Shown in pieces: positions 22,065 through 31,935 of a stretch of DNA of 64,000 nt. This DNA is from Trichocoleus sp. FACHB-46 (GTDB lineage Bacteria > Cyanobacteriota > Cyanobacteriia > FACHB-46). The translations under genes and the position numbers were made by a program. Each line of letters opens with the position of its first letter. The first letter of the stretch is position 1. Under the pieces are notes generated by a model that worked only from the letters and a program-made list of their open reading frames with translations, was not told the origin of the DNA and did no database searches. The stretch is taken from assembly GCF_014695385.1 (NCBI RefSeq), contig NZ_JACJOD010000024.1:1-64000 (forward strand), given 5' to 3'.

Positions 22065-22940
22065 ATGGCAAACTGGCAACTACGTAGCTCCCTGCTGAAA
22101 TCTGCTCTGATTGTTGGACTAGCGACTGTAATGGGTGCTAGTGGCAGCATCGGCATGGCTTTGGTCGGGGAGCAGAGCGCGATCGCTCAAGAGCAAGCTC
22201 CCGCCGAGGAGACCCCAGCTGAAGAGACTCCCGCCGAAGAAGCTCCCGCCGAGGAAACCCCAGCTGAAGAGACTCCCGCTGAAGAAGCTCCCGCCGAGGA
22301 AACCCCAGCTGAAGAGACTCCCGCTGAAGAAGCTCCCGCCGAAGAGACCCCCGCCGAGGAAACCCCCGCCGAGGAGACTCCTGCTGAAGAAGCTCCCGCT
22401 GAAGAGACCCCTGCCGAGGAAACCCCCGCTCCTGCCGAGCAAGCTTCTGACCAACGAGTTCTTCCCATCGTGCTTGTCTCTACTGCTGGAGAAACGGCTA
22501 GCACCAGAGTCATTCCTGGCTACCAGCCTCGCTTTAGCAAGATTTTAGGCAGTGGTGCCCTACTGGTGAACGACGAAGATCAAGTCACAGGCTACTACTT
22601 CGCGACCACAGGTTTAGAGCCTAGCCAGACTCTGCCTTATCACTTTCATGGCGCTCTGACTGGTACTAACCCCACCAGTTGCGAAGGCGATAAAGCTCTA
22701 TTAGATTCCGAAGTCGGTGGCGGCGTTATTACAGATTTGGCTGCGATCGCACCACTGCAATCTAGTGTTGGTGGCTTTGGTCGGGTTGGTTCACCCTTCA
22801 GCCCTGTTCAGCTATCTGCCCCGGTTGCTTTGGCAGACATTGGCTACCTAAACATTCACTCGACCCAAGGCACTCCTGTTGGCCCTGGCATCGTTTGTGC
22901 CAACGTGCGTCTAGATCCCGCTGGCTTCGTGCGTAAGTAA
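22065..22940 (+). CDS. Secreted xPAEE-repeat protein with C-terminal His-motif domain
   Basis: A 291-aa exported protein. The signal peptide is about residues 1-41 (SALIVGLATVMGASGSIGMAL ... SAIA|Q). Residues 45-123 hold 15 pentapeptides xPAEE (x = A or T, mostly in an A-T-T period of three), an acidic, Pro-rich, extended spacer. The 165-residue C-terminal domain is predicted all-beta: FSKILGSGALLV, GYYFATTGLEPSQTLPYHFHGAL, a Cys pair (TSCEG, GIVCANV) and GYLNIHSTQGTPVGPGIVCANVRL. The HFH and NIH motifs recall Cu/Zn-SOD or CHRD-type sandwiches, but I cannot assign a family. ATG start preceded by GAGGAAC. Single-gene unit with a terminator hairpin. Confidence 0.85.
   Translation: MANWQLRSSLLKSALIVGLATVMGASGSIGMALVGEQSAIAQEQAPAEETPAEETPAEEAPAEETPAEETPAEEAPAEETPAEETPAEEAPAEETPAEETPAEETPAEEAPAEETPAEETPAPAEQASDQRVLPIVLVSTAGETASTRVIPGYQPRFSKILGSGALLVNDEDQVTGYYFATTGLEPSQTLPYHFHGALTGTNPTSCEGDKALLDSEVGGGVITDLAAIAPLQSSVGGFGRVGSPFSPVQLSAPVALADIGYLNIHSTQGTPVGPGIVCANVRLDPAGFVRK
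22197..22433 (+). repeat. 15-bp coding tandem repeat (xPAEE)
   Basis: Fifteen units of 15 bp plus a partial one, in a higher-order 45-bp pattern (APAEE TPAEE TPAEE). Synonymous sites vary (gag/gaa, ccc/cca, gct/gcc), which points to selection on the protein, yet 45-bp blocks are near-identical, which points to recent slippage. One block has an extra TPAEE. Reverse-strand frames are open only because of the repeat. Confidence 0.9.
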
Positions 22941-27104: not shown

Positions 27105-27608
27105 ATGCGCAACAGTGGGCTAGGCAGAGGAGTAGGATTGCCAATCGCGATCGCGATCGTAGCTGGAGGTTTGATCACGACCCCGGCACAAGCGCAGTCA
27201 GCCCAATCTCCCTTACTTTCGATCTTTGAAAACGTTAAACTCGGTCCCAAGTTTTCCCCAGACCCAACTAGAATTCAGGGTATTAGTGGGGGGTCAGTGG
27301 CGGCTACAAGTATTGCAAAACGCAATGATACGATAACAGGGCCGTGCAGCGGTTATATGGATACTAAGCCAGACCACACCCTCTCGCTGACTGGCTTTTT
27401 CGATTACCTCAGCTTGGAAGTCGAAAGCCCTGAAGATACTACCTTGGTGATTCAAGGGCCAGGTGGCACCTGGTGTAATGATGACCATCAAGGTAAAAAC
27501 CCCGGTATTGCAGGTCAATGGCTTGCTGGAACCTATAAAGTTTGGATCGGTTCCTACAAGCCCGGTAGCTACCATCCTTATCGCATCAAGCTCTCAGAAG
27601 TTCGTTAA
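27105..27608 (+). CDS. Exported protein, PPC-like beta domain
   Basis: A 167-aa exported protein. The signal peptide reads MRNSGLGRGVGLPIAIAIVAGGLITTPAQAQ. The mature part has two Cys (GPCSGY, TWCNDD) and a beta-rich C-terminus (HTLSLTGFFDYLSLEVESPEDTTLVIQGPGGTW ... GQWLAGTYKVWIGSYKPGSYHPYRIKLSEV) resembling pre-peptidase C-terminal domains of exported proteases, but standing alone. Start at ATG 27105, not the TTG at 27066. Function unknown; homologues are common in cyanobacteria as I recall. Confidence 0.8.
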   Translation: MRNSGLGRGVGLPIAIAIVAGGLITTPAQAQSAQSPLLSIFENVKLGPKFSPDPTRIQGISGGSVAATSIAKRNDTITGPCSGYMDTKPDHTLSLTGFFDYLSLEVESPEDTTLVIQGPGGTWCNDDHQGKNPGIAGQWLAGTYKVWIGSYKPGSYHPYRIKLSEVR

Positions 27609-27655
27609 TGGTTGTCCGTCCATCATCTCAGCCTATCCATGAATGGGTTCAGTTT

Positions 27656-27698
27656 GAGTGGGGAGTTGCTAAAGTGCCAATTTAGTGACTCCACACTC
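27656..27698. terminator. Bidirectional hairpin between convergent genes
   Basis: GGAGTTGCTAAA (27662-27673) pairs with TTTAGTGACTCC (27681-27692) using two G-U pairs. Outer GAGTG/CACTC extends it. It lies between stops at 27608 (+) and 27738 (-). Confidence 0.65.
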
Positions 27699-27737
27699 AA
27701 GGGCTGAAGCCTTTGCTAGAGGGTTAATCCAAATAAC

Positions 27738-28460
27738 TTAGAAATCTTCTAGAAGAGAGCTGAGTCGGCTCAAAATTGGATCAGATTCGGGAGATAAAGC
27801 TGCTGTTTTTGAGACTGGCTCCTTGAAAGCAAAGATAGGTTCAGGGGCCATGGGGTCAGCAGGGATGCAAGTCTGAGCTAATAGTGGTGACGAAACTTCA
27901 ACCATGCTAGGCGGAGGAGTTGGAACGGAAGAGGATAAGGTTGATGGAGCCTGGCTAAGCTGAGATTGTAGGTCTGCAAACTGCTGAGCAATGTGAGTCT
28001 CGATCGCTTCAACTTGAGTCGTCAAGTGAATGAGCTGACTAGTTAGTTGATTGAGATACTCCGTTGTCGGATTATTCGTGGGTTGTTTCCAGCTAGAAAA
28101 CCCGCGATCGCTCTTCGTTCCCAATTCCTCTAACTGCTGAATAACTTGCCTGAGCTGAGCTTCAAGCTGATCAAATTGTTGGGATTGGCTAGCAACTAAC
28201 TTTGCCTCTAGTTGGGCTACTTGTTGCTGGATTGGTGTTAAGGCTGCTTCAAAGTCAATAGCATGACTAACATCGTGATTGACAGACTGAGTGGGCTCAG
28301 CGGCTAATAAGGTTTGCTGGAGCGCTTGCTTACAGAGATCACTGAAACTGTCGTACTGCTCTTCGCTCAATGCTGCTTCGATCGCCACCAACAAAGTTTG
28401 GTCAGCAGCTTCCGGAGTAAACGTAATAGATTTATTCGTCTTTTTCGGGGGAGTGGGCAT
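27738..28460 (-). CDS. ParR-like coiled-coil adaptor candidate
   Basis: A 240-aa protein directly after a ParM-like gene (5-base gap). The N-terminus KKTNKSITFTPEAADQTLLVAIEAALSEEQYDSFSDLCKQAL could be a ribbon-helix-helix DNA-binding unit. Residues about 70-180 are Gln/Leu-rich coiled coil (QQQVAQLEAKLVASQSQQFDQL, LTTQVEAIETHIAQQFADLQSQL). A Pro/Ser-rich linker and a terminal amphipathic helix (DPILSRLSSLLEDF) follow. Plasmid ParR proteins bind DNA through an N-terminal ribbon-helix-helix and bind ParM through a C-terminal tail, so the layout matches, but there is no sequence identification. Domain calls are by eye. Confidence 0.6.
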   Translation of the reverse strand: MPTPPKKTNKSITFTPEAADQTLLVAIEAALSEEQYDSFSDLCKQALQQTLLAAEPTQSVNHDVSHAIDFEAALTPIQQQVAQLEAKLVASQSQQFDQLEAQLRQVIQQLEELGTKSDRGFSSWKQPTNNPTTEYLNQLTSQLIHLTTQVEAIETHIAQQFADLQSQLSQAPSTLSSSVPTPPPSMVEVSSPLLAQTCIPADPMAPEPIFAFKEPVSKTAALSPESDPILSRLSSLLEDF

Positions 28461-28465
28461 GGCAG

Positions 28466-29545
28466 TCAGACCTTGGTGAGTTGAGGATTAACAGTTGCCA
28501 ACTGGGCGCGGCCATAGAGGTATTGGCCTAACGCATTCGCTTTGCGCGACGGTTGGGCGAGGTGAATGCGCAACTGCGCCTCCTCTAGCAAGGGTTGAAA
28601 ATCTGGCCAGAAAAATTCGCCGCCCCCACCACTGACGATCACATCTGTAACTCGTTCTGGTAGCCAAGCGATTAAACGGTTCGACAACTCACGGGCAAAA
28701 CTCTTCCGCAAGCTGGGCAGAATAGCATCCAAATCCGTTGGGCGAGTGGCACCACGGGGACGATAAAACCGTTGTCCTTGAGGTCGATTCACCGCTTCGA
28801 TCAACGAGAGCGACTGACTATCTGCGCCTTGAATTTGACTTGCCACTTGGTCGTAGAACTGGTTCATGGCAAAGGGTTCGCTCTTGGAGGCTCCGCGCGC
28901 AAACCGAAAGCGATCGACCATGAGAAAGTCGGTAGTTTGGTGACCAATATCCACGATCGCGACTGATAGATTTGGTAAGTCAGGACTATGAGCGTCTTTG
29001 TCTTGGGCTTCACACCAAATCAGGCTGCCATAGCCTTCTGGCATCACCCACACCTGCTGAATGTTGACGGCTTTTGGCTCGCCTCGGTAAGCCAAAACAT
29101 GGGGCGATCGCAGCAAACTGATTAATTGCTCTTTCTCGCGATCGAACTGCTCTTGGGAGTGGTAGGGCAATCCCAAAACCACAGCCAAATCTCCGCTGAG
29201 ATTGAAATGCCCTACGCAAGCCAACACCTTGACCAAGGCATCTTCAACCTTGGATTGTCCGACGCCTAAGTTGGCTCCAAAGTCTGCTGCTAATTGCCCG
29301 ATCGCGTAGCCTCGACCTTGGTGCTCCAACCAAATATCTAATAGCGCATCGGTAGAACGGGACTCGAACCCACCCCGTCGCACTTGGTCAACGGTTAAGT
29401 GAGCGACATTAGCAGCAATCAGCACTACATCATCGGGATAGCGGCTCACGCAAGCTTTAGTAGAAGTTCGGCCCAAGTCAATACTCAAAATTGCAGTACT
29501 GCTGGAATGACCATTGAGTGAATTAGAGGGTTGTCTGGCAGTCAT
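28466..29545 (-). CDS. ParM/StbA-like actin-type ATPase
   Basis: A 359-aa actin-fold ATPase. Phosphate-1 is AILSIDLGRTSTKACV, phosphate-2 is VAIVDIGHQTTDFLMV, and the adenosine motif is VTDVIVSGGGGEFFWP; these three define the ParM/StbA group. ParM forms dynamic filaments that push plasmids apart; a chromosomal copy may segregate DNA or organise other cargo. I start at ATG 29545 because GAGAGG lies 11 bases upstream; an in-frame ATG at 29584 would add 13 residues. It is followed by a ParR-like gene. It diverges from ftsH, with a LexA-box-like palindrome between them. Confidence 0.85.
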   Translation of the reverse strand: MTARQPSNSLNGHSSSTAILSIDLGRTSTKACVSRYPDDVVLIAANVAHLTVDQVRRGGFESRSTDALLDIWLEHQGRGYAIGQLAADFGANLGVGQSKVEDALVKVLACVGHFNLSGDLAVVLGLPYHSQEQFDREKEQLISLLRSPHVLAYRGEPKAVNIQQVWVMPEGYGSLIWCEAQDKDAHSPDLPNLSVAIVDIGHQTTDFLMVDRFRFARGASKSEPFAMNQFYDQVASQIQGADSQSLSLIEAVNRPQGQRFYRPRGATRPTDLDAILPSLRKSFARELSNRLIAWLPERVTDVIVSGGGGEFFWPDFQPLLEEAQLRIHLAQPSRKANALGQYLYGRAQLATVNPQLTKV

Positions 29546-29640
29546 CGAATTATTCACCTCTCGCTTAAATTCATAACTGTGCATGCCCTGTCTTGACCAC
29601 GAAGCACTGATTCAAGCCCCCAGGAGGGATGGTTGAATAG

Positions 29641-29662
29641 CCAAAACTCGGTAAAGTTTTGG
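29641..29662. promoter_or_regulatory. Hairpin in the parM-like upstream region
   Basis: CCAAAACT (29641-29648) pairs with AGTTTTGG (29655-29662). It is 96 bases upstream of the parM-like start and could be an operator or 5' UTR hairpin. No function can be assigned. Confidence 0.4.
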
Positions 29663-29774
29663 CATAGGTGCTAAGAAGTGGGTGCTGGAAAAAATTTGAG
29701 TCTGGCTGAGCCTGACCTGGTGAACCTAGCTTTGGTAAACCCAGATCTAGCGATCGCTTTCTTTAGGCCCTATT

Positions 29775-29798
29775 TATATAGTACAAAAGTACTATATA
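29775..29798. promoter_or_regulatory. LexA-box-like palindrome
   Basis: A perfect 10-bp inverted repeat with a 4-base AAAA centre. Its core AGTACAAAAGTACT (29780-29793) fits the published cyanobacterial LexA-binding consensus RGTACNNNDGTWCB at every position. It lies about 230 bases upstream of the parM-like start and 250 upstream of ftsH, so which gene it would control is unclear. Confidence 0.6.
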
Positions 29799-30048
29799 GC
29801 ATGGTTTATGAGGAGACAAACCCCTTTGCTTGCCCCAATCCTGATAATTAAGTTAAATTTGATTAAGAAGTTGTTTTAACCGTTCTTAAGCAAGCTCCGA
29901 CAAACCTGAGCTTGATAGATATGAAGCTAAGGGAAATTAATTTAGCTGCCCTTGATCCAAAAACTCTATTCTGCGAGTGGGATGGCTCACTCACGCCGAA
30001 TCTAACTGTTGTGCTCCGTGTTGCTCCGTATATAGAGGCCACTAACTT

Positions 30049-31935
30049 ATGAAATTGTCTTGGAAAACAGTGCTGCTGTGGGCACTGCCCGCTGTGGTCA
30101 TCGGTTTCTTCTTTTGGCAAGGCGCTTTTGCTCCAACTCCGGTAGATATGAGCAAAAACGCAGCAAGTACCCGCATGACCTACGGGCGCTTTTTGGAATA
30201 TCTAGACGCAAGTCGAGTCACAAGTGTTGACCTCTATGAAGGAGGACGGACAGCAATTGTAGAAGCGGTTGATCCAGAATTAGATAATCGGGTGCAGCGG
30301 CTCAGAGTAGACCTGCCTGGTAATGCTCCTGAACTGATTTCCCGCCTCAGAACCGAAAAAATCAGCTTTGATGTGCATCCACCTCGTAATGATGGTGCCA
30401 TCTGGGGCCTATTGGGGAACCTAGTCTTCCCAATCTTGCTGATTGCGGGACTCTTCTTCTTGTTCCGTCGCTCTAATAATGTGCCAGGTGGCCCTGGTCA
30501 AGCCATGAACTTTGGCAAATCCCGTGCTCGGTTCCAGATGGAAGCGAAAACAGGTGTCATGTTTGAGGATGTGGCAGGCGTAGAAGAAGCCAAGGAAGAG
30601 TTGCAAGAAGTTGTAACTTTCCTCAAGAAGCCAGAACGCTTTACTGCCGTTGGTGCCCGCATTCCTAAAGGGGTATTGCTAGTGGGTCCTCCAGGAACGG
30701 GTAAAACTCTGTTGGCTAAGGCGATCGCTGGGGAAGCTGGCGTGCCCTTCTTTAGCATCTCTGGTTCTGAGTTTGTCGAAATGTTTGTTGGTGTGGGTGC
30801 TTCTCGCGTCCGTGACCTCTTTAAGAAAGCGAAAGAAAACGCGCCTTGCATCATCTTTATCGATGAGATTGACGCAGTCGGTCGGCAACGGGGCGCAGGC
30901 ATTGGCGGTGGCAACGATGAGCGGGAACAAACCCTCAACCAGTTGCTCACCGAAATGGATGGCTTCGAAGGCAACACTGGCATCATCATCATTGCTGCAA
31001 CTAACCGTCCTGACGTTCTAGACTCAGCCCTGCTCCGTCCGGGTCGTTTCGATCGCCAAGTCACGGTGGATGCTCCTGACATCAAAGGTCGCGTAGAGAT
31101 TTTGCAAGTTCACGCTCGCAACAAGAAGCTCTCTGACGAAGTTTCGATCGATTTAGTGGCTCGTCGGACTCCTGGCTTCACCGGGGCAGACTTGGCAAAC
31201 TTACTGAACGAGGCCGCTATCCTAACCGCACGTCGCCGTAAAGAAGCGATCACCATGCTAGAAATCGACGATGCAGTCGATCGCGTGGTAGCTGGGATGG
31301 AAGGCACTCCTCTGGTCGATAGCAAGAGCAAGCGCTTGATTGCTTATCACGAGATTGGCCATGCGGTGATTGGCACCTTGGTCAAAGCTCATGACCCCGT
31401 CCAAAAAGTCACTTTGATTCCTCGCGGACAAGCTCAGGGCTTGACCTGGTTTACTCCCAGCGAAGAGCAAGGCTTGATTTCTAAAGCGCAACTGATGGCT
31501 CGGATTATGGGAGCCTTAGGAGGTCGCGCGGCTGAGGAAGTAATCTTTGGTGATGCTGAGGTGACTACTGGGGCGGGTAATGACCTGCAACAAGTCAGCA
31601 GCATGGCGCGGCAGATGGTGACCCGGTTCGGCATGTCTGACTTAGGCCCCTTGTGCTTAGAGAGCCAATCAGGCGAAGTGTTCTTGGGCCGAGATTTGAT
31701 GACTCGCTCGGAGTTCTCTGATGAGATTTCGTCTCGGATTGATGCTCAAGTCCGCTCAATTGTGGAGCACTGCTACGATGAATCTCGTCGCATCATCCGT
31801 GAGAACCGCACCGTAATCGATCGCCTGGTGGATCTCTTAATTGAAAAAGAAACCATCGACGGCGACGAGTTCCGCCAAATCGTGGCTGAGTACACGGTAG
31901 TACCCGAGAAAGAGCAGTATGTGCCTCAGCTCTAA
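30049..31935 (+). CDS. ftsH: ATP-dependent zinc metalloprotease FtsH
   Basis: Membrane AAA+ protease, 628 aa, closest by eye to the thylakoid FtsH2/FtsH3 group that removes damaged D1 during photosystem II repair. Two N-terminal membrane helices ([18 protein letters not shown] and [19 protein letters not shown]) flank a lumenal domain. Walker A is GPPGTGKT (residues 213-220), Walker [10 protein letters not shown], the second region of homology [20 protein letters not shown], and the zinc site HEIGH (His434) with a downstream acidic ligand region. It is probably a subunit of a hetero-hexamer. ATG start. It diverges from the parM-like gene and ends at a perfect hairpin. Confidence 0.97.

Follow-up and report, generated by a model that had tools for sequence, protein, structure and literature searches.

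The window, a stretch of 64,000 nucleotides, carries on its minus strand two adjacent genes, fcmB (corM, 28466..29545), encoding a ParM-derived actin-like ATPase, and fcmC (27738..28460), encoding a 240 aa protein that would act as ParR-like partner and membrane adaptor of FcmB. The fcmB open reading frame spans 28466-29584 and yields 372 aa from its first ATG, at 29584, or 359 aa if translation begins at the internal ATG, at 29545; the latter is the likelier start because the sequence AGAGGTG lies just upstream of it at good spacing. The fcmC gene lies directly downstream on the same strand, after an intergenic gap of 5 bases. The initial annotation had reported actin-type ATPase motifs with a partner gene 5 bases on, and both open reading frames were found in the sequence, together with the IDLGRTSTK, VDIGHQTTDF and IVSGGGGEFF motifs of FcmB and the C-terminal tail ILSRLSSLLEDF of FcmC. 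Elsewhere in the window, positions 22065-22940 encode a protein that looks secreted and contains a long tandem repeat of APAEET/PAEE.

The family identity of both proteins was determined by profile searches. FcmB matches the NCBIfam equivalog NF052678 with 639.4 bits (cut-off 300; E 1.6e-192) and FcmC matches the equivalog NF052682 with 118.9 bits (cut-off 90; E 2.5e-34), a family that was matched by all 19 aligned FcmC homologues; identity across the FcmC family is low, at 29-41% in the alignment. The Pfam domains ALP_N and MreB-like_C are above cut-off in FcmB, and the CorM entry (PDB 9rmi) is the sole solved sequence matched at the level of E 1e-154, over residues 18-364; by sequence, CorM is the name under which FcmB was deposited. 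The ATPase is related to ParM yet belongs to a separate equivalog, since it scores 48.4 bits against the plasmid ParM model PRK13917 of NCBIfam, far under the cut-off of 417, and matches a partition-protein family of PHROGs at 7e-35. Matches of full-length FcmC to SlyX, Mis12, intermediate filament and other Pfam families were below cut-off and were set aside as coiled-coil composition. Altogether, the gene pair is very probably orthologous to FcmB-FcmC, the chromosomal system for cell shape. The pair is thus already known and is not a new kind of system; the partner, described as unrecognised in the initial annotation, is FcmC, above its NF052682 cut-off and published (PMC12645912).

In order to follow the pair across cyanobacteria, we called FcmB above the NF052678 cut-off in a sample of 386 cyanobacterial genomes. 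FcmB passes the cut-off in 62 of them, with 64 loci in all, and each of the 62 canonical loci has an FcmC match in the same orientation no more than 411 bp downstream, the gap between the profile matches being mostly 42-58 bp. The two loci without a downstream fcmC encode the fused FcmB paralogues described below. Conservation of the pair on cyanobacterial chromosomes, which had been proposed as a check, is therefore complete at the canonical loci (62/62), and homologues with unlinked genes, which had been named as speaking against the reading, do not occur among them. In the tree, the FcmB of the window falls outside the Nostocales clade.

Several loci deserve separate mention. Three contigs carrying fcmBC, all from metagenome-assembled genomes, are labelled Xenococcaceae (L017), Gloeomargaritaceae (L014) and Thiomargarita (L019), and mis-binning is likely for L019 at least; fcmBC has been reported absent from unicellular cyanobacteria (PMC12645912). 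In a cyanobacterial genome of 2.2 Mb (L033, G374:C1:122657-123685), an in-frame TAG interrupts fcmB about 160 residues into the protein, and the downstream fcmC open reading frame is intact. At locus L010, which covers 9.2 kb of sequence, no recognisable FcmC tail accompanies fcmB, which is followed by a 430-aa open reading frame that looks PRC-barrel-like by eye. The fcmB of genome G360, listed with an in-frame stop, was rejected as a pseudogene, its open reading frame being full length (350 aa).

The anatomy of FcmC was modelled with AlphaFold2, using 19 natural homologues. Residues 8-54 (28299..28439, minus strand) are predicted to form a ribbon-helix-helix (RHH)-like domain, in which an extended SITFT segment is followed by helices 18-32 and 39-54. 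Residues 63-170 (27951..28274, minus strand) are assigned by the model and the alignment to two long coiled-coil helices (63-124 and 132-170), whose length varies among homologues. A low-confidence stretch (171-227), matching a Pro-rich linker, then leads to a helix at 228-237. This helix lies within the C-terminal segment DPILSRLSSLLEDF (residues 227-240; 27741..27782, minus strand), which fits the DPLLxRLxxLLEDF type; the pattern is matched by 35 of 35 homologues, with the final F in all of them, and the helical hydrophobic moment of the tail exceeds that of 97.5% of its own shuffles. By analogy with ParR, the amphipathic C-terminal helix is probably the tail that binds FcmB. The coiled coil and Pro-rich linker noted earlier thus reappear in the model, and the broader proposal is borne out: the actin descends from ParM, and its neighbour is built like ParR, with a start that tentatively resembles RHH, then a coiled coil, a linker and a short helix at the C-terminus.

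The modelled N-terminus is suggestive of a ribbon-helix-helix fold. When the isolated N-terminal domain was submitted to Foldseek, seven of eight matches were RHH proteins, with E values of 2.9 or worse, and with the full model ParD and NikR were the sole structure matches that are not coiled coils (residues 7-61), none individually significant. Structures of ParR were absent among the FcmC matches, which need not speak against the fold. Profile searches of the N-terminal domain against solved structures returned no RHH protein, the matches being designed helical repeats and a single unrelated repressor, and Pfam gave scattered weak RHH matches in single family members (RHH_1, E 0.003; RHH_8, E 0.13). 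Because no E value is significant and the sequence profiles are undecisive, we call this region RHH-like only. The position before the invariant F, which faces DNA in classical RHH proteins, is T in 15 of 35 homologues, but individual homologues have D, E, I, W or F there, which makes a conserved DNA-reading face doubtful. Of the possible DNA-binding N-terminus suggested by the initial annotation, the fold is tentatively retained and the DNA binding is in doubt.

The function of the pair is known from Nostoc punctiforme, in which fcmB and fcmC were named (mSphere 2025; PMC12645912). Mutants in either gene have wide, round cells, so rod shape depends on both; FcmB assembles at the membrane into filaments running around the cell, which drop into the cytoplasm when FcmC is missing (PMC12645912). 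In two-hybrid assays FcmB contacts FcmC, and neither contacts MreB, MreC or MreD; FcmB is reported as not derived from MreB, and the authors infer that a plasmid partition system was acquired horizontally (PMC12645912). A cargo other than that of ParR, hinted at by the long coiled coil, is in line with these knockouts, which point to the membrane and cell shape. We infer the same function for FcmB-FcmC in the present organism, with the caveat that the functional data come from Nostocales, outside whose clade the FcmB of the window lies. As a ParM-type actin, FcmB would polymerise with ATP. FcmC would dimerise through its RHH-like N-terminus and coiled coil, and its invariant C-terminal helix may be the docking site that holds FcmB, so that FcmC dimers would tether FcmB filaments under the cell membrane. 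Such cortical filaments would encircle the cell and set its width and rod shape. The means by which FcmC contacts the membrane is not visible in the window sequence.

Two other readings start from the relationship of FcmB to ParM. The pair could segregate chromosomal DNA, with the RHH domain of FcmC binding a parC-like site and FcmB filaments moving the DNA, and both the resemblance of the FcmC N-terminus to RHH, the fold of ParR, and the polar S-T-T strand face of the window FcmC, which could suit DNA contact, would fit such a role. However, no direct repeats of at least 10 nt, as in parC-type sites, are present in the flanks (29540-30060 and 27580-27760), some homologues carry an acidic, aliphatic or aromatic residue ahead of the invariant F, at the DNA-facing position, and in N. 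punctiforme FcmB is located at the membrane and both mutants have nucleoids of normal appearance under DAPI staining (PMC12645912). We therefore regard segregation as highly improbable; of the segregation or cargo-positioning module that had been proposed, the domesticated partition system stands and the segregation is unlikely. A narrower variant, in which the RHH domain still binds DNA while the tail holds membrane-bound FcmB filaments, is improbable too; if true, it would tie the chromosome, or the promoter of fcmBC itself, to the cell-shape filaments.

ParM-type actins are common on plasmids, and besides its single fcmB this genome has two further, weak ParM-like matches on other contigs, so the pair might instead be a recent and still mobile plasmid partition cassette inserted into the chromosome by chance. 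Against this, fcmB and fcmC are linked family-wide over many genera, FcmB is also present in both listed same-genus relatives, the flanking genes look like the housekeeping genes gltX, ftsH and argG, and a search of 72,556 plasmids with an FcmC from Nostocales returned no FcmC at E 1e-5. Such a cassette can hardly be credited, and linkage, neighbours and plasmid search agree with the chromosomal, domesticated module initially suggested.

FcmB itself does occur on plasmids, in a different form. A tblastn search of plasmids returned FcmB proteins 51-57% identical to that of the window in Nostoc, Dolichospermum and Trichormus, and together with two further genomes these give five fused FcmB proteins of 508-633 aa, on chromosomes and plasmids of Nostocales (L024:5560-7086, L025:5143-7044, L026:5584-7113, L027:2832-4361 on the minus strand and L028:2081-3661). 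Each has an N-terminal glycine-rich, YtxH-like membrane anchor and a coiled coil ahead of the FcmB core, and no FcmC lies beside any of the five. Three of them depart from the phosphate-2 motif DIGHQTxD (DIGHQNIN, DIGYESTN, DIGHQSIH). In the tree the cores of the fusions branch inside Nostocales FcmB (enclosing clade support 100/99), hence the FcmB core was captured. An HNH-like HIKPHSKGG...NNIKWE motif marks a 336-aa protein encoded upstream at L024, L026, L027 and L028; no open reading frame of this type is listed upstream at L025. This type of partner (336-338 aa, with glycine zippers, encoded upstream of the anchor gene; L024:4530-5540, L068:5484-6494 on the minus strand, L069:495-1511) had no Pfam or NCBIfam match in the one copy tested. 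The anchor recurs elsewhere, again accompanied by such a partner, joined to dynamin-family GTPase domains (L068:1784-4603, L069:1459-4221) or to an FGE-sulfatase domain (L061:523-1926); the dynamin form matches PADLOC LeoBC at 1e-10. A DNA-phosphorothioation-associated gene neighbours the fused FcmB at L026, as do HEPN and helicase genes at L024. The anchored fusion looks new, and one might guess that anchor and partner form a modular conflict or defence system; neither was found in the genome of the window.

FcmB-FcmC clearly illustrates how a machine for plasmid segregation became a cytoskeleton for cell shape, to which the present locus adds the anatomy of the poorly described FcmC and the complete gene linkage in the sampled genomes. 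The pair shares with that of N. punctiforme both equivalog cut-offs, gene order, orientation and chromosomal location; in contrast, the window FcmC has 240 aa, compared with about 150-190 aa in the Nostocales FcmC examined, and lacks the N-terminal MFQW of the Nostocales type. A CorM-CorR cell-shape system of Anabaena was reportedly described in a 2025 preprint. CorM (PDB 9rmi), compared by its deposited sequence only, is of the same family as FcmB and matches it over nearly its full length. With plasmid ParM-ParR-parC the pair shares the actin fold and the ParR layout of an RHH-like start and a C-terminal, probably actin-binding helix, but it has no parC-like repeats, stays below the PRK13917 cut-off, and has a published role in shape rather than DNA. 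The chromosome-encoded cParMs of Desulfitobacterium and others likewise sit on the chromosome beside a ParR-like gene, in their case for an RHH protein, whereas FcmB belongs to a different, cyanobacterial equivalog family, and cyanobacteria are mentioned once, in passing, in the cParM paper (PMC12270681). Finally, MreB is also an actin controlling rod shape, and this genome encodes it separately, as a strong match of 490 bits at C8:131867.
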